Shown here piece after piece: positions 27,079 to 38,775 of a stretch of DNA of 45,964 bases (the first letter of the stretch is position 1; every line of letters starts with the position of its first letter). Made by a program: the position numbers and the translations under genes. The notes beneath the pieces were generated by a model. It had not been told where the DNA came from, did not search any database, and was given only the letters and a program-made list of their open reading frames with translations. The stretch comes from a virus. Location: the IMG/VR virus record IMGVR_UViG_3300017928_000004, positions 1-45,964 of that record. The stretch is one strand, 5' to 3'.

Positions 27079-28077
27079 ATGAAGCTCCTCATCGTCAGCA
27101 CTTCAGTTGTCCCGATAGGCGAGAATAGGTATGGCGGAGTCGAGCTAATGGCCGCGACGCTTGCTGGGGCTCTCAAGCGGGCTGGTCATTCCGTCGATAT
27201 TGCCGCTCCCATCGGTAGCGAACCGCCTCAGGGCGTCAAACTGCTCCCCACCGTGAAGCTGCCTCAGGAGCAGGACAGGGATGGTATTGCGATGAGGCGG
27301 CTCTGGTTCGAGCAGGCTGGGCCTTACGACGCCATCCACGACTTCTCACATGGTCACGCTCTCGGGGTGGACGAGGCTTACGCCAGTGAGAAGCTGCCAG
27401 CCTGCTTCATGGTGTGGGACCCCGTCGTGACCCGCTACAACAAGTCCCGTTTCAACATCTGCTGTGTGAGCGAGTGGCAGGCGGAGAGGTTCAGGCACAT
27501 GTATTCGCAGGAGGCCAAGGTCTTCCCAAGCTGGGGCTATGTGGACGGTCGCAAGTATCATCCAGTGAACGAGCCCCTCAGGGAGCGGTTCCTCTTCTTG
27601 GGGAAGCTGACCCCGAACAAGGGGGCGATGGAGGCTATCTCGCTGGCAAAGGCTTGCGGAGCGAAGCTGGACGTTGTTGGTGGGTTGCTTGCGACTGACG
27701 ACATGCGCTACCTTGAAGACCTGCGGAAGCACGAGAGCGACGACATCAGCATCAGGTTCAACGTCACCGAGGACGAGAAGATTAGGCTGATTCAGGATGC
27801 GGTAGCAATCTTGTATCCGCTCCAGTTCGACGAGGCGCACAACCTAGTGGCTATCGAAGCGGCCCAGTGTCACACGCCCATGATAAGCTACTCAAGGGGA
27901 GCGTTGCCGTCGCTGGGGATAACCCGTTGCGTGGGGTCGGTGCCCGAGTTCTTGGAGGCCATGAAGACGGTGAATCAATGGTTTCAGCCGAGTCCCGTGG
28001 ATTGGAGCGTGGATTCTCGCATACCCAAATATGAGGCGTTCTACCGTGAGATTGCGGAGGGGATGAGATGGGCATAG
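27079..28077 (+). CDS. Glycosyltransferase family 4-like, 332 aa
   Basis: GT-B fold. N-terminal 'MKLLIVSTSVVPIGENRYGG' followed by 'VELMAATLAGALKRAGHSVD' is the classic Tyr-Gly-Gly-x-Glu entry. The C-domain has 'RFLFLGKLTPNKGAMEAISL' (GT1/4 core) and 'PLQFDEAHNLVAIEAAQCHT' (E-x7-E-like nucleotide-sugar site). It is the intact paralogue of the interrupted gene at 32097, which makes it the reference for that finding. It starts at the stop of the preceding gene. Confidence 0.8.
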   Translation: MKLLIVSTSVVPIGENRYGGVELMAATLAGALKRAGHSVDIAAPIGSEPPQGVKLLPTVKLPQEQDRDGIAMRRLWFEQAGPYDAIHDFSHGHALGVDEAYASEKLPACFMVWDPVVTRYNKSRFNICCVSEWQAERFRHMYSQEAKVFPSWGYVDGRKYHPVNEPLRERFLFLGKLTPNKGAMEAISLAKACGAKLDVVGGLLATDDMRYLEDLRKHESDDISIRFNVTEDEKIRLIQDAVAILYPLQFDEAHNLVAIEAAQCHTPMISYSRGALPSLGITRCVGSVPEFLEAMKTVNQWFQPSPVDWSVDSRIPKYEAFYREIAEGMRWA

Positions 28078-29993: not shown

Positions 29994-30223
29994 GCCAACA
30001 TTACTCTCTTGTCTGTCCCAAATGTGGGGCTGGACCGAATCCGATAACCGCGAGGCTTGTCTCTTGGACACCTGATGGAGTCAATGGCGTAGCTCGGAAG
30101 GATGGAACTCATTCAATGCTCTGCGGCAATGGTCATGTCTGGATACTTGAAACCAACTCGTATCTCTATACTGTTGCTTCGGCGCAGACGCCAGCCAAGA
30201 AGAAACATTGGTGGCAGAATTGA
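29990..30223 (+). CDS. Small zinc-ribbon-like protein, 77 aa
   Basis: MSQHYSLVCPKCGAGPNPIT, then 'HSMLCGNGHVWILETNSYLY'. CxxC plus C-x3-H form a zinc site. The TTG start overlaps the aminotransferase stop (TTGA), and its own TGA overlaps the next TTG. Role unknown. Confidence 0.6.
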   Translation: MSQHYSLVCPKCGAGPNPITARLVSWTPDGVNGVARKDGTHSMLCGNGHVWILETNSYLYTVASAQTPAKKKHWWQN

Positions 30224-30501
30224 GCGACCCCAAGACTCTCTGGTTGAAGCAGTTCGAGGGACAGGCCGACATCACCGTCCTCAACGAGACGCTGACCATA
30301 CAAAAGGTTAAGACCTATGCTGATATGCCCATAGTCGATGCCCAGAGGAATCTACCCCCACAAATCGCTCTCCGAGAGGTTCTGGCCGAAGGTAAGAAAG
30401 ACGGAAGGATGTTGGCTTTGGACGGCGTCGCTGGACACGGCAGGATACGGACTATTCGGGACATGGGAGGGCGGCAGAGTGAGATTGCACGGTGCTCATA
30501 G
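30220..30501 (+). pseudogene. 5' remnant of the 30790-type gene, invaded by an HNH gene
   Basis: From TTG 30220: MSDPKTLWLKQFEGQADITV, then 'LNETLTIQKVKTYADMP'. This resembles the start of the intact protein at 30790 ('MTPKEQYLGQFANQVDMTI'); P-K, L, Q-F, Q, D and T align. From 30338 the DNA encodes an HNH enzyme in another frame, and the remaining residues here look like its shadow. Best read as a truncated copy left by endonuclease insertion. Confidence 0.5.
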
Positions 30502-30793
30502 AGTGGCTTACGAACTCGTCAAGGGGCCGATTCCCGAAGGCAAAGACCTCCATCATCTTTGTCACAACCCCCCATGTGTGAACCCCGACCATCTCCAACC
30601 AGTCACACCGAAGGAACACAACCTGTTGAGCGAGAATGTCACAAAACTCAATACGGAAAAGACTCATTGTCCGAGAGGGCATCCGCTTGCAGGGGATAAC
30701 TTGGTTCTCTTCCAGTTGAGGCGGGGATATAGAGAATGTTTGACTTGCAAACGTGAGAAAGAACTACGATGGTATTATGAGCACAAGAAATGA
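30338..30793 (+). CDS. HNH homing endonuclease, 151 aa
   Basis: N-terminal 'RFWPKVRKTEGCWLWTASLD' and 'GYGLFGTWEGGRVRLHGAHR' are typical of phage HNH_3-type nucleases. The core is 'GKDLHHLCHNPPCVNPDHLQ' (H-H, C, N-P-D-H), and a C-terminal CPRGH/CxxC zinc knuckle follows. It has no clear promoter of its own and lies inside a duplicated gene start. Its end overlaps the next ATG. Confidence 0.85.
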   Translation: MPRGIYPHKSLSERFWPKVRKTEGCWLWTASLDTAGYGLFGTWEGGRVRLHGAHRVAYELVKGPIPEGKDLHHLCHNPPCVNPDHLQPVTPKEHNLLSENVTKLNTEKTHCPRGHPLAGDNLVLFQLRRGYRECLTCKREKELRWYYEHKK

Positions 30794-31287
30794 CTCCAAA
30801 AGAGCAGTATCTCGGGCAATTTGCGAACCAAGTAGACATGACCATCTCCGATGAACTTTTGCAGAAGTCCGACGACCCTGTTGCGGATTTGAAGGCCGTC
30901 ACTACCGGAAGGCTGGTCATAGTGGTTCCTAACGAGTGGAACTGGCCCCCTCAACTGGCCCCGATGAAAAATCCCTCACATAAGCGGTTCTACGACGCCG
31001 ACCTCTTGGTGGAGCACCTCGAAGCCGCCGGCTGGGAAACCTATATCCTCCGCTCCATCGAGTCGGGTGGCTGGTCTTGGTTGAGCATAGAAGCCGTAAG
31101 AGGCGAGCCAAGGGCAATCATGTCGTCAGTCCCAGTCCCGAAGCTGGACAGCAAGGAGCGCCGCAAGCAGAAGCGCGCCGCACTACAGAGAGGGCAGTCC
31201 ACTTCCGCTGTGACACCGAGTCCATCGACATCGAACTCAGAGACAGCGCCAAGCTCCGCTCCTGCTGGGCAGACGGGCACCAAGTGA
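30790..31287 (+). CDS. Hypothetical protein, probably frameshifted near its end
   Basis: MTPKEQYLGQFANQVDMTIS, then 'GRLVIVVPNEWNWPPQLAPM' and 'HLEAAGWETYILRSIESGGW'. After about residue 138 this frame becomes Ser/Thr/Pro filler, while the -1 frame encodes 'VHFRCDTESIDIELRDSAKL' and 'RSCWADGHQVRRLTF' and stops at 31304. That unit also occurs in the 117-aa protein at 16270. A one-base deletion or real -1 shift near 31185-31195 would join them. Function unknown. Confidence 0.55.
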   Translation: MTPKEQYLGQFANQVDMTISDELLQKSDDPVADLKAVTTGRLVIVVPNEWNWPPQLAPMKNPSHKRFYDADLLVEHLEAAGWETYILRSIESGGWSWLSIEAVRGEPRAIMSSVPVPKLDSKERRKQKRAALQRGQSTSAVTPSPSTSNSETAPSSAPAGQTGTK

Positions 31288-31546: not shown

Positions 31547-32095
31547 GTGCCATACGACAAGAAGGCTGGAGACAAACGCTACCGTGACGCTCACCGAGAG
31601 GAACACAAGGTCTACGCCAAGGACTACTACGAGAAGAACAAAGCTCACCTAGCAGAGAACACGCACGACCATAGGCTAGCCCGCAGGAGAGAGATTCAAC
31701 GGCTCTGGGGCGTTGTCGGTGGAGAGAAGGGGACATGGCGGAATCTACATTGGGTAGACTCTGAGAAGGTCGCTGTCAAGGTTCTCGAAGCCGAGGGCTA
31801 TCATAATGTCAGACGGCTAGACTACTTCAAGACCAGCCCTTTCGACATTCGGGCGGAGAACGAGTCGAGTCAAGTCTGGGTATTCCAGATAACCATGCGA
31901 ACTCACCAAGACTCGCACAGGTGGCATCTCAGGCTTGCTGAGGATTTGGGCCTCTTGTGGCGCGTCCTCTATATCCGTCCTCGATTGGATAAATACATCA
32001 TCAAGTCCCCGTATGAATCAGGATGCGAAGAACTCACACTCGGAGACCTTCAGAACCTAAAGGCGGTTCCCCTTGAAGCTACTGCTAATCAGTAG
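31547..32095 (+). CDS. Putative homing nuclease, PD-(D/E)xK-like, 182 aa
   Basis: Basic helical N-terminus (DKRYRDAHREEHKVYAKDYY, like the DNA-binding arm of phage homing enzymes), then 'VKVLEAEGYHNVRRLDYFKT' and 'SPFDIRAENESSQVWVFQIT'. This gives D-x2-A-E ... Q-x-T, compatible with a restriction-endonuclease-like core. Helix 'SHRWHLRLAEDLGLLWRVLY' follows. The family is not certain. It ends 1 nt before the ATG of the interrupted glycosyltransferase gene, which matters for the bypass hypothesis. Confidence 0.5.
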   Translation: MPYDKKAGDKRYRDAHREEHKVYAKDYYEKNKAHLAENTHDHRLARRREIQRLWGVVGGEKGTWRNLHWVDSEKVAVKVLEAEGYHNVRRLDYFKTSPFDIRAENESSQVWVFQITMRTHQDSHRWHLRLAEDLGLLWRVLYIRPRLDKYIIKSPYESGCEELTLGDLQNLKAVPLEATANQ

Positions 32096-32096
32096 C

Positions 32097-33176
32097 ATGG
32101 CCCTCAGGACGCCCCCGACTAGCTACGGAGAGTAGGCAAACCTACCCGCAGGACTAGAACGGGTCGTCTATGAGGAGGCTAAGGGCCTCCATGAGTTAGG
32201 CCACGATGTCACGCTGGTAGCCACCAAGGACTCCGAGCCTCCCGAGGGCGTCTCCATGATTAAGACCGTGGAGCCGTGGAACAAGCTGAACGACGCACAG
32301 AGGCAGAGCTATGCGAAAGCAGATAGAGTTTGGAACGGCTGGCGAAGCGCCGAGGAAGAGGCTTATGGCTTCTACAGGGACAGGCTCCCAGAGTTCGACG
32401 CCGTCTTGGACGCCTCGTGGGCCAAGTGGAGCTACACCAGCAAGAAGGACGAAATCCTCGGGGTGAACCACTCGGTCAAAAGCTACAACGTCAAGCCTCC
32501 GCGTGACTTCCCCCTGTTCCTTGGAGTGTCTCATGCTCATTCTAGGTTCCTGTCCCAGCAGTTGCACATCCCCGTGAGGACACAGTGGAACCCCGTCGAT
32601 GTAGACGCAATCCCGATGCAGAGGGACAAGTCGGAGAGGCTGCTGTCGCTCAACAGGGTCATGCCCACCAAGGGGATACACTACTTCTTGGATGTCTGCG
32701 AGAAGACGAAGGCCAAGGGAGATGTCGCTGGGGACGATTCCACGCTGGTTCCAGACCAAGGATATGTCAACATGGTCAAGCAACGCTGTGCCAAGAGCGC
32801 GAACGTGGTCTATCATGGGCTAGTCAGTGATGCTGAGAGGGTCAAGTTGCTCCAGAACGCCAAGGCGACGCTCTGCTTCGTCGATGGGGGCTATCAGGAG
32901 GTCTTCGGGATGCAGGCTGTCGAGTCGCTCGCGGCTGGGACTCCAGTGATTGCGGCTGATAGCTGGGGCTTTTCTGACACAATTCAGGACGGCGTGACAG
33001 GGTTCATCATCAAGAACATCGACGAGGCCGTGAAGCGGGTGACCGAGGTGATGGACGGGACTGTCCGATTCGACCCTGCTGTTTGCCGTGCGAGTGCTGA
33101 GAGGTTTGCCCGAGGTCCGATAGCGCAACGGCTGGAAAAGACGCTTAAGTCTGTGCAGAGGGGATGTAGATGGTAG
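32097..33176 (+). CDS. Glycosyltransferase family 4, interrupted by an in-frame TAG at codon 13
   Basis: From the ATG at 32097: 'MALRTPPTSYGE', then TAG (32133-32135), then in the same frame 'ANLPAGLERVVYEEAKGLHE', 'LGHDVTLVATKDSEPPEGV' and an intact GT-B body. The body includes 'LFLGVSHAHSRFLSQQLHIP', 'LSLNRVMPTKGIHYFLDVCE' and the nucleotide-sugar site 'FVDGGYQEVFGMQAVESLAA'. Without the first 50 residues the N-terminal Rossmann domain is incomplete, so use of the internal ATG at 32256 alone should not give a whole enzyme. The paralogue at 27079 shows that only a 21-nt insert separates the two glycines of the entry motif. See findings. Confidence 0.75.
32127..32153 (+). other. Candidate translational bypass element
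   Basis: GGA (32127-32129), then GAG TAG, then a loop and GCA before a second GGA (32151-32153). GTAGG (32132-32136) and CCTAC (32141-32145) form a perfect 5-bp stem with loop CAAA that contains the stop codon. Matching GGA codons, a stop just after the first, and a hairpin between them are the elements of the T4 gene 60 hop. Function here is hypothetical. Confidence 0.5.
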
Positions 33177-33643: not shown

Positions 33644-33671
33644 GCTTGTTGATGACTCTGTGGGGTCGTCA

Positions 33672-34151
33672 ATGGCTAGAGCGAAAGGAACGCCCCAGTA
33701 TGGCGGTGCGAAGGGAGCGCGTTGGAGCAAGACAGGGCTACCACACCACTGTCCCAATCACAACAAGCGGGAGAATGGTTGTGCTGAATGTAGACGACTG
33801 AATACGGCATACAATCATGCGCTGAGGCATTTGGACCTCAAACGCTACAGCACCATCCAAACTGCATCCAAAGTTCGTCTGAAATTGGCGGTGATAGCGA
33901 AACTTGGCGGCAAGTGTGTAGCCTGTGGAATGACCGACCCTAGAGTGCTTCAAGTCAATCATAAGAACGGAGGTGGGCTGAAGGAGTTGAAGCGAATTGG
34001 GAGCACCCATATCTATCGCGGGATAGTCTTAGGAACGCGGACAACAGACGATGTGGATTTGAGATGCGCTAACTGCAACATAATCTATGAATACGAGCGT
34101 GGCGCAAGGAGGTGGATAGATGATGGCAGAACTTATCGACAATCCCGCTAA
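33672..34151 (+). CDS. HNH endonuclease, 159 aa
   Basis: Zinc-binding N-terminus 'HHCPNHNKRENGCAECRRL', basic linker, then the core 'GGKCVACGMTDPRVLQVNHK' with 'NGGGLKEL' and 'DVDLRCANCNIIYEYERG'. This is the CxxC ... NH ... CxxC layout of the free-standing HNH enzymes common beside virion genes. Its 3' end overlaps the gene before the terminase by 32 nt, suggesting insertion next to terS/terL. Confidence 0.85.
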   Translation: MARAKGTPQYGGAKGARWSKTGLPHHCPNHNKRENGCAECRRLNTAYNHALRHLDLKRYSTIQTASKVRLKLAVIAKLGGKCVACGMTDPRVLQVNHKNGGGLKELKRIGSTHIYRGIVLGTRTTDDVDLRCANCNIIYEYERGARRWIDDGRTYRQSR

Positions 34152-34374
34152 GCTCGTAGCATACTGCAACCAGAACATCAAGGCGGTCGAGGCTGAGATG
34201 GCCGACGCGGAGCCGGAAATCAGGCTGAAGCTGAGGAACCAACTGCTCGGGTTCACGGAGTTGCTTGAGAAGGGCCTTCACCAACTGCATCAGCAGGGCT
34301 ACCAGACCGAGGACATAGCCGTGGGTGCGCCGACCAAGAAGGGCAGGAGGAAAAGCCGATTTGACGCCGATTGA
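34120..34374 (+). CDS. Helical protein directly before terL, 84 aa (small terminase candidate)
   Basis: MMAELIDNPAKLVAYCNQNI, then 'VEAEMADAEPEIRLKLRNQL' and 'TELLEKGLHQLHQQGYQTED'. All-helical with a basic end (KKGRRKSRFDAD). Position and helical make-up would fit a small terminase subunit, but no helix-turn-helix is obvious. Overlaps the terL start. Confidence 0.4.
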   Translation: MMAELIDNPAKLVAYCNQNIKAVEAEMADAEPEIRLKLRNQLLGFTELLEKGLHQLHQQGYQTEDIAVGAPTKKGRRKSRFDAD

Positions 34375-35206
34375 GCGAGAACAGATGGTTCTTGCTGACC
34401 CCGAACTCTTTGCGGCTAGGGTGACTCTTGAGAGTTGGCGCTGGAAGAATATAGACGGCTGGCAGCGAGAGGTCCTGAAGTTCAGCGAGCGGTTCGCCAT
34501 CCTCAACTGCTCGCGCCAATCAGGGAAGAGTAGCATCCTAGCGGTGAAGGCCCTGTGGACGGCCCTAGTGAACGAGAACTGCCTGGTGCTGATAGTGGCT
34601 GAACAGCGACAGTCGAACGAGGACTTGCGCAAGGTGCGGGAGCTGGTGAGGGGCTACGACAAGTATCTCAGGAAGAAATACGGAGGCTCCCTGACCTGCA
34701 ACCTGCTCACGGAGAACCTGACCTCGCTGGAGTTCGCCAACCACTCAAGAATCATAGCCCTGCCCGCCAACGAGAAGGTCAGAGGCTTTTCGGCACCTAC
34801 TCTGGTGATAATCGACGAAGCTGGGTGGGTGGACGACGAGGTGTTTGTGGCGATAGACCCCATGATGGAGGTCTCTCAGGGGCAGTTGATTCTCGCATCC
34901 ACGCCTAACGGGACAGACGGCTTCTTCTGCAGGGAGTGGAAGACGAACCCGCGCTACAGGCACTTCAGGGTGACTTGGGCCGACTGCCCCCGCATCAGCA
35001 AGGAGCGCATCCAGGAGAGACGGCAGTTGTATGGCGACGCCTTCGTGAACCAAGAGTATGAGTGCATCTTCTTGGACGATGTCTCTTCCCTGTTCCCGGA
35101 GCAGGCCCTCAAGGACTCCATCGACGAGAACGAGAACGTCTTTTCAGCCCAGATGGAGCAGATTCAGAAGGTCATAGGCCCCAAGGGAGACGTGGAACTG
35201 ATTTGA
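34361..35206 (+). CDS. terL: Large terminase, ATPase half, 281 aa
   Basis: Packaging ATPase: Walker A 'CSRQSGKSS' at about residues 50-58, Walker B 'LVIIDEAG' at about 148-155, and coupling motif 'LASTPNG' near 178-184. The N-terminal 'WQREVLKFSERFAILNC' adenine motif precedes Walker A. Start TTG 34361 (MTPIEREQM), with GTG 34325 as an alternative. The protein stops at 35206 exactly where most terminases continue into the nuclease domain; the nuclease is the next gene, coupled by TTGA. Confidence 0.85.
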   Translation: MTPIEREQMVLADPELFAARVTLESWRWKNIDGWQREVLKFSERFAILNCSRQSGKSSILAVKALWTALVNENCLVLIVAEQRQSNEDLRKVRELVRGYDKYLRKKYGGSLTCNLLTENLTSLEFANHSRIIALPANEKVRGFSAPTLVIIDEAGWVDDEVFVAIDPMMEVSQGQLILASTPNGTDGFFCREWKTNPRYRHFRVTWADCPRISKERIQERRQLYGDAFVNQEYECIFLDDVSSLFPEQALKDSIDENENVFSAQMEQIQKVIGPKGDVELI

Positions 35207-35874
35207 GCGCCCGAGAGCGGGATTTCAGAATCGGATTGGACTTCGGACAGCGCCAAGACCATAGTGCGCTCTGCTTGGTCGAGGTCGGCGAGAAGGCCGT
35301 GGTGAAGGCCCTCGTGAAGTATCCTCTCGGGACTGGCTACCCTACAGTGGTGGAGACTGTGGTGGGGCTCTACAAGTCGGTGGTTTCGACCCACACGGAC
35401 GAGGACGGCTCATGGAACGGCACCGTGACCACGTTCGCGGCTGACGCCACAGGGGTAGGTTCTGAGCCAGCCAAGTATCTCCAAACGCTCCTACCTGACG
35501 CTAGGGTCGAGCCCTTCGTGTTCACCAACCAGAGGAAGCGGGAGCTTGTCGGCAAGGTGAAGGTGCTCCATGCTTTCGGGAGGCTGAAGTTCGCCCGCCG
35601 CAAGGGGGATGAAGTCTACAACCGCACCCTTTCAGAGTTGATAACCGAGATGAAACAAGTTCAGGCCAAGGTGGTGAGGGAGGACATGTCGAACCCAGAG
35701 ATTGAGATATTCAAGACGGGAATGCACGACGATTTATTTACGGCTCTTGCTCTTGCTGTGAAGGATATTCATATTGACGAGAGCTGGTCGGATTATCAGA
35801 TGTTTGTTCCTGACAAGACTTGGATGAAGACCCCGCTCGAAGAACGAACCTACCCCGAACCTCTTTTCTTTTGA
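35203..35874 (+). CDS. terL: Large terminase, nuclease half, 223 aa
   Basis: RNase H-like nuclease of the terminase: catalytic acidic residues in 'FRIGLDFGQRQDHS' (D13), 'TTFAADATGVGSEP' (D81) and 'KTGMHDDLFTALALA' (D176/D177). The TTG start overlaps the TGA of the ATPase gene (TTGA), with the frame moving by -1. Together the two proteins equal one normal terminase. Its 3' end is overlapped antisense by an HNH gene for 137 bp. Confidence 0.8.
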   Translation: MSARERDFRIGLDFGQRQDHSALCLVEVGEKAVVKALVKYPLGTGYPTVVETVVGLYKSVVSTHTDEDGSWNGTVTTFAADATGVGSEPAKYLQTLLPDARVEPFVFTNQRKRELVGKVKVLHAFGRLKFARRKGDEVYNRTLSELITEMKQVQAKVVREDMSNPEIEIFKTGMHDDLFTALALAVKDIHIDESWSDYQMFVPDKTWMKTPLEERTYPEPLFF

Positions 35875-36334
35875 TGCTTCCTTCCTGTAGTTGGGCTTCA
35901 GTTTTCTCCGCCATCACGATGAACTGGCAGTTCAGACAGAGAACTCGGAACCCCTCGGGGAAATTGTTCTCGATTAGCCATTCGTAGAAGATTCTCCCGC
36001 CTCTCTTGGCACCGAAGAGTTGTATCAGATGCTTAACCCCACCTCCGTTGATGTGGTCGATGGACAACGCCCTCATGTCGGAGAATCCACAACGCACACA
36101 CACCTTGTCGGGCGAATAGTGCTGGATGACGATTTCCTTCTTCTTTTGGTTGTATCGTCTGGCAATCCATTTCGCCCTCGGCCTGTGAGCCTCGTGGTAG
36201 TTTTTGCGATATTGACGCCTGTGCTCTGGGTCGTGCCAGTTCATACACCTACGACAGAACTTCTGGTTATGCCCAGTCGGAGTGAAGGTCTTGTAGCAGA
36301 TGGCGCATATCTTGTCGTGGAATCTATCAGGCAT
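35738..36334 (-). CDS. HNH endonuclease with C-terminal extension antisense to terL, 198 aa
   Basis: Zinc knuckle 'KICAICYKTFTPTGHNQKFC', linker, then the core 'KVCVRCGFSDMRALSIDHIN' with 'GGGVKHL' and 'VLCLNCQFIVMAEK'. This is the same type as the 33672 and 38344 enzymes. The usual end would lie near 'LNCQFIVMAEKTEAQLQ'; here the frame runs on for about 45 residues antisense to the terminase nuclease gene, so the original stop may have been lost on insertion. Confidence 0.8.
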   Translation of the reverse strand: MPDRFHDKICAICYKTFTPTGHNQKFCRRCMNWHDPEHRRQYRKNYHEAHRPRAKWIARRYNQKKKEIVIQHYSPDKVCVRCGFSDMRALSIDHINGGGVKHLIQLFGAKRGGRIFYEWLIENNFPEGFRVLCLNCQFIVMAEKTEAQLQEGSIKRKEVRGRFVLRAGSSSKSCQEQTSDNPTSSRQYEYPSQQEQEP

Positions 36335-38343: not shown

Positions 38344-38775
38344 ATGCCACGACCACGCGGCGGTCCCAATGGGACATATCTGACTCCTGAGAAGAAACGG
38401 AATTACTGGTATCAATGGGCGGCGAAGAATCAGGAGCATCTCAAGGACTACCAGCGCACACCAGAGTATCGAGCGGCTCGGAACGCGGGGATGAAGACTT
38501 GGTATGCAAAGACGAAAGCCAGAATCTACACGGGGAAGATTTGTGTTTGTTGCGGAGCAACGCCTGTCGAGCTAGACCACGTAGCGCCGTCTCCTCTCCC
38601 GCGATGGGACAGGAACTCGCAACTCACGATGCGTCAGTATCTCGGGAATCCTAGCAATTTCCAGTTCCTCTGCCGACCCTGCAACACCGCCAAGCGGGGA
38701 GGCCACACCTGCGTCCGACACCACAAGTATCTCGGCATCTGGAATCATCTTCCGAATCTGACTGACCTCGGTTAG
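38344..38775 (+). CDS. HNH endonuclease, 143 aa
   Basis: Basic N-terminal arm 'GTYLTPEKKRNYWYQWAAKN', then the core 'GKICVCCGATPVELDHVAPS' and 'SNFQFLCRPCNTAKRGGHTC': CxxC, D-H and CxxCN. It sits directly upstream of the portal gene with its own TATA box, as expected for a free-standing homing enzyme targeting a virion gene. Confidence 0.85.
   Translation: MPRPRGGPNGTYLTPEKKRNYWYQWAAKNQEHLKDYQRTPEYRAARNAGMKTWYAKTKARIYTGKICVCCGATPVELDHVAPSPLPRWDRNSQLTMRQYLGNPSNFQFLCRPCNTAKRGGHTCVRHHKYLGIWNHLPNLTDLG

Follow-up and report, generated by a model that had tools for sequence, protein, structure and literature searches.

Is a viral gene that is interrupted by an in-frame stop codon still decoded into a full-length protein, by ribosome hopping or stop-codon readthrough, or has it been silenced? 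The question is raised by a glycosyltransferase gene in a 45,964-nt stretch of viral DNA (IMG/VR virus record IMGVR_UViG_3300017928_000004, positions 1 to 45,964; hereafter "the window"), for which an initial annotation had proposed a translational bypass resembling that of phage T4 gene 60. The features concerned are:

27079-28077, plus strand: uninterrupted paralogous glycosyltransferase of the same virus, reading YGGVE (Pfam, alignment).
31547-32095, plus strand: endonuclease-like ORF that shares 23 nt with the gene start (sub-threshold Mrr_cat only).
32073-33176, plus strand: GT4-type glycosyltransferase gene with a TTG start and an in-frame TAG inside (Pfam, alignment, AAAGG, model).
32127-32129, plus strand: GGA codon 5' of the insert, would-be take-off codon and first Gly of the YGG motif.
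32130-32150, plus strand: 21-nt (7-codon) in-frame insert, GAGTAGGCAAACCTACCCGCA, absent from 60 of 60 alignable relatives.
32133-32135, plus strand: in-frame TAG stop, the same in IMGVR_UViG_3300017955_000003.
32151-32153, plus strand: GGA codon 3' of the insert, would-be landing codon and second Gly of the YGG motif.
32256-33176, plus strand: 306-codon stretch, possible product of an internal ATG.

The gene had been described as opening with ATG 32097, running for 12 codons up to Tyr-Gly-Glu, meeting TAG at the next codon and continuing in the same frame into a conserved GT4 domain, and sequence and translation bear this out in all but the start codon. Apart from a single internal stop (TAG 32133-32135), frame 32097-33176 is open as far as TAG 33174-33176, with no additional stop and no frameshift in the 346 codons after the insert. 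The GT4 domain is recognizable from a Pfam Glycos_transf_1 match of the 32073-33176 gene (E=2.3e-18), from an EX7E motif (EVFGMQAVE in the translation) and from a structure model of the readthrough product, which has a GT-B fold (mean pLDDT 81.7, below 50 in the insert region at residues 17-26 and in short segments at 68-71 and 82-91) and is closest to the tll1591 glucosyltransferases among solved structures (PDB 7fg9 and 8x3q, TM-score about 0.8). The true start is probably TTG 32073 rather than ATG 32097, since AAAGG lies 9 nt upstream and the residues added by this start (MKLLLISS ahead of MALRTPPTSYG) line up with the relatives' first strand and form strand 2-6 in the model. The gene start then overlaps ORF 31547-32095 by 23 nt, and the frame reads MKLLLISSMALRTPPTSYGE-stop-ANLPAGLERVVYEEAKGLHELGHDVTLVA. 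Further details of the initial annotation held at the level of individual letters, namely the two GGA codons (32127 and 32151) with 21 nt (32130-32150) between them, the YGGVE of the paralogue at 27079, and the perfect 5-bp stem GTAGG/CCTAC holding the TAG at 32132-32145.

The interrupted gene was compared with PDB sequences, viral glycosyltransferases (30-35% identity), plasmid-borne ones, and glycosyltransferases from Pseudomonadota and Actinomycetota genomes, in a combined alignment of 68 relatives from which eight wrong-direction rows were set aside, leaving 60 alignable. An alignment of this kind had been proposed as a check on whether homologues lack the 21 bases, and exactly seven codons are missing in 60 of 60: viral and cellular relatives alike read Y-x-(G/P)-x-E with zero residues at the insert position, where EXANLPA occurs in the window's gene only. 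Because the seven codons are missing from every alignable relative, the alignment indicates that a fixed-length loop has genuinely gained exactly these seven codons by insertion, and the Gly-Gly loop of this GT4 gene, with TAG and insert inside it, no longer lies in an uninterrupted frame. This absence is the strongest fact of the case; the components that occur at chance level (see below) are not striking singly. A longer loop at this position is found in some distant GT4 enzymes (9v0l alignment), and is thus structurally not impossible.

We found no second copy of the insert in the window and no copy of its sequence in 150 genomes. An unrelated viral contig, IMGVR_UViG_2700989145_000001, shares 21 nt (GGAGAGTAGGCAAACCTACCC; reverse strand, about 835-855, in a non-coding stretch), a match that we treated as chance, and the insert was not retained as a candidate repeated or mobile element. 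By eye, the shared stretch of that contig resembles the end of a 5S rRNA gene, and it gave no Rfam 5S match.

A second IMG/VR record, IMGVR_UViG_3300017955_000003, carries identical letters for the insert, the TAG, the GGA pair and the stem. Five substitutions and no indels separate its 28.2 kb from the window, none of the differences lying in the glycosyltransferase gene, and by this comparison the record represents a separate assembly of almost the same virus. The insertion, the stop and the otherwise intact gene are therefore present in two assemblies. Scans of IMG/VR with the glycosyltransferase, terminase, portal, and endonuclease-like proteins returned this near-identical contig or distant glycosyltransferases only, and scans of GTDB contigs returned no glycosyltransferases or few, distant ones. 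No diverged allele with the insert was found in these collections.

The reading of the interrupted gene depends on how TAG is decoded. TAG ends 29 of the 55 long ORFs in the window (chosen mechanically, some being spurious), in agreement with the earlier statement that it is a common normal stop in this genome. As it is the commonest stop and often abuts the next start, TAG is a working stop in this virus, and this use as the main stop rules out TAG as a genome-wide sense codon. No tRNA genes were found in the window. Conversely, TAA is rare (3 of 55 long ORFs), and such TAG-rich, TAA-poor stop usage is unusual for a bacterial virus.

The gene neighbors include an aminotransferase, an acetyltransferase, an epimerase, and a methyltransferase, which suggests that the surroundings are a phage sugar-modification locus. 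Directly upstream, ORF 31547-32095 matches Mrr_cat at E=0.048, under the curated cut-off; no other family match, no PDB match and no relatives were found for it, no HNH, GIY-YIG, LAGLIDADG or PD-(D/E)XK domain was recognized beyond this Mrr_cat match, and its single-sequence model is unusable (pLDDT 38). The term "endonuclease-like" is thus a lead rather than a finding. The 9 kb that surround the glycosyltransferase and terminase contain four clear HNH endonuclease genes (30338-30793, 33660-34151, 35738-36334 on the minus strand, and 38344-38775), so that homing-type genes are common in the region. The start of ORF 30208-30501 resembles ORF 30790-31287 (33% over 55 residues); the two flank an HNH gene, as though this gene had inserted into or next to a duplicated gene. 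The terminase large subunit is split into an ATPase ORF (34325-35206) and a nuclease ORF in another frame (35203-35874), for which TTG 35203 is a possible start that overlaps the ATPase stop (ATTTGA); the split recurs in the second assembly.

Four perfect hairpins lie in and around the insert:

32053-32069, plus strand: 5-bp hairpin with the AAAGG ribosome-binding sequence in its loop.
32078-32096, plus strand: 7-bp perfect hairpin upstream of the insert, one of two such stems in the window.
32132-32145, plus strand: 5-bp hairpin GTAGG-CAAA-CCTAC enclosing the TAG.
32174-32190, plus strand: 6-bp hairpin GGAGGC-TAAGG-GCCTCC, downstream of the landing codon.

The interval 32053-32190 is the only place in the window with four perfect hairpins in 140 nt and forms its densest cluster. 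The window has fewer perfect short hairpins than random sequence would have (7 bp, 2 vs. about 20 expected; 6 bp, 24 vs. 77), and random placement yields a cluster of at least four somewhere about 60% of the time, so that the weight of the cluster rests solely on its coincidence with the insert. Taken alone, the insert hairpin is ordinary, a perfect 5-bp stem being present in about 2-3% of the window's 21-24-nt stretches. The local 61-nt fold is no better than shuffles (z = -0.1), while the 128-nt region folds moderately better (z = -2.3) and ranks high among plus-strand windows, a noisy estimate from 25 shuffles. No known RNA elements were found in the window, with chance-level matches alone near the insert. 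A random 21-mer contains an in-frame stop with a chance of 21%. From codon usage, GGA makes up 17% of Gly codons, the chance that both Gly codons are GGA is near 3%, and that of any matched Gly pair is about 31%; the paired Gly codons derive from the Gly-Gly motif of the family.

We consider that these observations are probably best explained by the silencing of a dispensable glycosyltransferase gene through a recent insertion that kept the frame but brought in an amber codon. A 21-nt insertion with an amber codon would have landed exactly between the glycines of the Y-G-G-x-E loop, possibly left during repair by the neighboring endonuclease-like gene. Ribosomes would initiate at TTG 32073, or re-initiate at ATG 32097 just past the upstream ORF, and would stop at TAG 32133, yielding little or no full-length enzyme and thus a loss-of-function allele. 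Silencing is favored because the insert breaks a loop of fixed length in all 60 uninserted relatives, because TAG is read as a stop in this virus, because neither recoding product restores the motif, and because the same allele is found in the second assembly, five SNPs apart in 28.2 kb with no indel. The clean downstream frame and intact fold are as expected for a young lesion, hence a presumably recent loss. On the other side, the insert preserves the reading frame (a 1 in 3 chance), the next 346 codons are clean, and the insertion fell within the densest hairpin cluster of the window. Even so, silencing needs fewer assumptions than either recoding route.

Stop-codon readthrough, in which a suppressor tRNA, possibly one of the host, or a near-cognate tRNA would decode TAG and place EXANLPA in the glycine loop, is an unlikely alternative to silencing. 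It would account for the clean continuing frame, the longer loop of some distant GT4 enzymes (9v0l alignment) provides a structural precedent, and in-frame stops of bacterial genes have been argued to be often read through (PMC7918605). The initial annotation had held that readthrough would restore the protein, but the product would lengthen a motif of otherwise constant length by seven residues, at a position modelled with pLDDT below 50, and would have to arise at the main stop codon of this virus, in a window without a tRNA gene.

Programmed bypass, with take-off at GGA 32127, landing at GGA 32151 and 24 nt skipped to give ...TSYG-LERVV..., is quite improbable. Several elements are in place, including the matched GGA codons, a gap that contains a stop and a hairpin, hairpins on both sides that formally resemble T4 gene 60's 5' and 3' stem-loops (PMC11194080), and an endonuclease-like ORF directly upstream, as mobA is upstream of gene 60 in T4 (PMC5009743). 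However, bypass in T4 requires a stop directly 3' of the take-off codon (PMC5009743), and here the codon after GGA is GAG; T4 also needs a KKYK nascent-peptide signal about 30 residues before the P site (PMC5009743, PMC11194080), whereas only 19 codons are available here, TTG 32073 through the take-off codon, and KKYK is not encoded among them, which makes a long T4-like signal impossible. No Shine-Dalgarno-like GAG is present 6 nt before the landing site, CTACCCGCA preceding GGA 32151; the 61-nt structure is at shuffle level, and hairpin and GGA pair are both explicable by chance. The 24-nt hop product had been predicted to read SYG-LERVV, one residue shorter than the paralogue. This is correct, and the resulting Y-G-L-E is therefore one residue short of the motif invariant in 60 of 60 relatives, leaving it unrestored. 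Of the T4 features, the matched GGA codons are present, the stem-loops are present but of doubtful significance, and the adjacent stop, nascent-peptide signal, landing GAG and restored motif are absent; overall, the T4-type hop is weakly supported. No matched codon pair was found 21 nt apart, the sole spacing that restores the family sequence, and hops other than GGA-GGA (GAG to GAA, TAC to TAC), examined by eye, lose conserved residues or meet the TAG.

A broader version of bypass, for which we see very little probability, would make the locus a second phage cassette like T4 mobA/gene 60, in which a mobile endonuclease gene comes with a target-protecting insert in the neighboring glycosyltransferase gene; ribosomes would cross this insert by means of the GGA pair and the hairpins on either side, with no need of a long nascent peptide. 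In T4, mobA lies upstream of gene 60, and the 50-nt insert may shield the endonuclease's target from attack (PMC5009743); by analogy, it is possible that the 21-nt insert has a similar origin. It is likewise very doubtful that the functional protein is a shorter product from the internal ATG 32256: GAGGG lies at a usable distance upstream, but, according to the model, this product would be missing the N-terminal domain's first strand, Gly loop and first helix, and the codons ahead of 32256 already encode family sequence. Lastly, an assembly or sequencing artefact hiding a virus without insert or TAG is conceivable for a metagenome-derived contig but highly improbable, since a second record that is identical here and differs by five substitutions elsewhere makes a one-off error unlikely.

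Among known systems, the tll1591-type GT4 enzymes (PDB 7fg9, 8x3q) share the GT-B fold (TM-score about 0.8), EX7E motif and domain order of the gene, but their PPxxYGGxE loop is short, with neither the 7-codon insert nor a stop. The in-frame stops of bacterial genes (PMC7918605) are similar in that the frame is intact bar one in-frame stop. The byp inserts of Magnusiomyces capitatus mitochondria likewise place a short block of extra bases in an otherwise intact gene (PMC5009743), but these are 81 cases in a mitochondrion with relaxed decoding, whereas we describe one case in a phage with ordinary TAG stops. Programmed bypass was called apparently unique to T4 gene 60 by a 2010 review (PMC3014915), and a Streptomyces phage terminase has since been suggested as a further case (PMC5009743). 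The present locus shares with T4 gene 60 the matched GGA codons around a gap with stop and stem-loop (PMC5009743, PMC3014915), an endonuclease-like gene upstream, and a gap missing from relatives. It differs in a gap of 24 nt in the same frame vs. 50 nt in T4, in a sense codon between take-off and stop, in having no room for a nascent-peptide signal and no GAG before landing, in a hop product that breaks an invariant motif, and in an upstream ORF that is endonuclease-like by weak sequence match only, vs. T4 mobA. A matched GGA pair in a glycosyltransferase can, as a caution, arise simply from the conserved Gly-Gly motif. If the gene is silenced, as is likelier, the locus represents a phage sugar transferase gene whose fixed glycine loop received a precise in-frame insertion, beside a possible mobile endonuclease; were bypass true, a second phage case, short and lacking a long nascent peptide, would alter the view of which signals are necessary.
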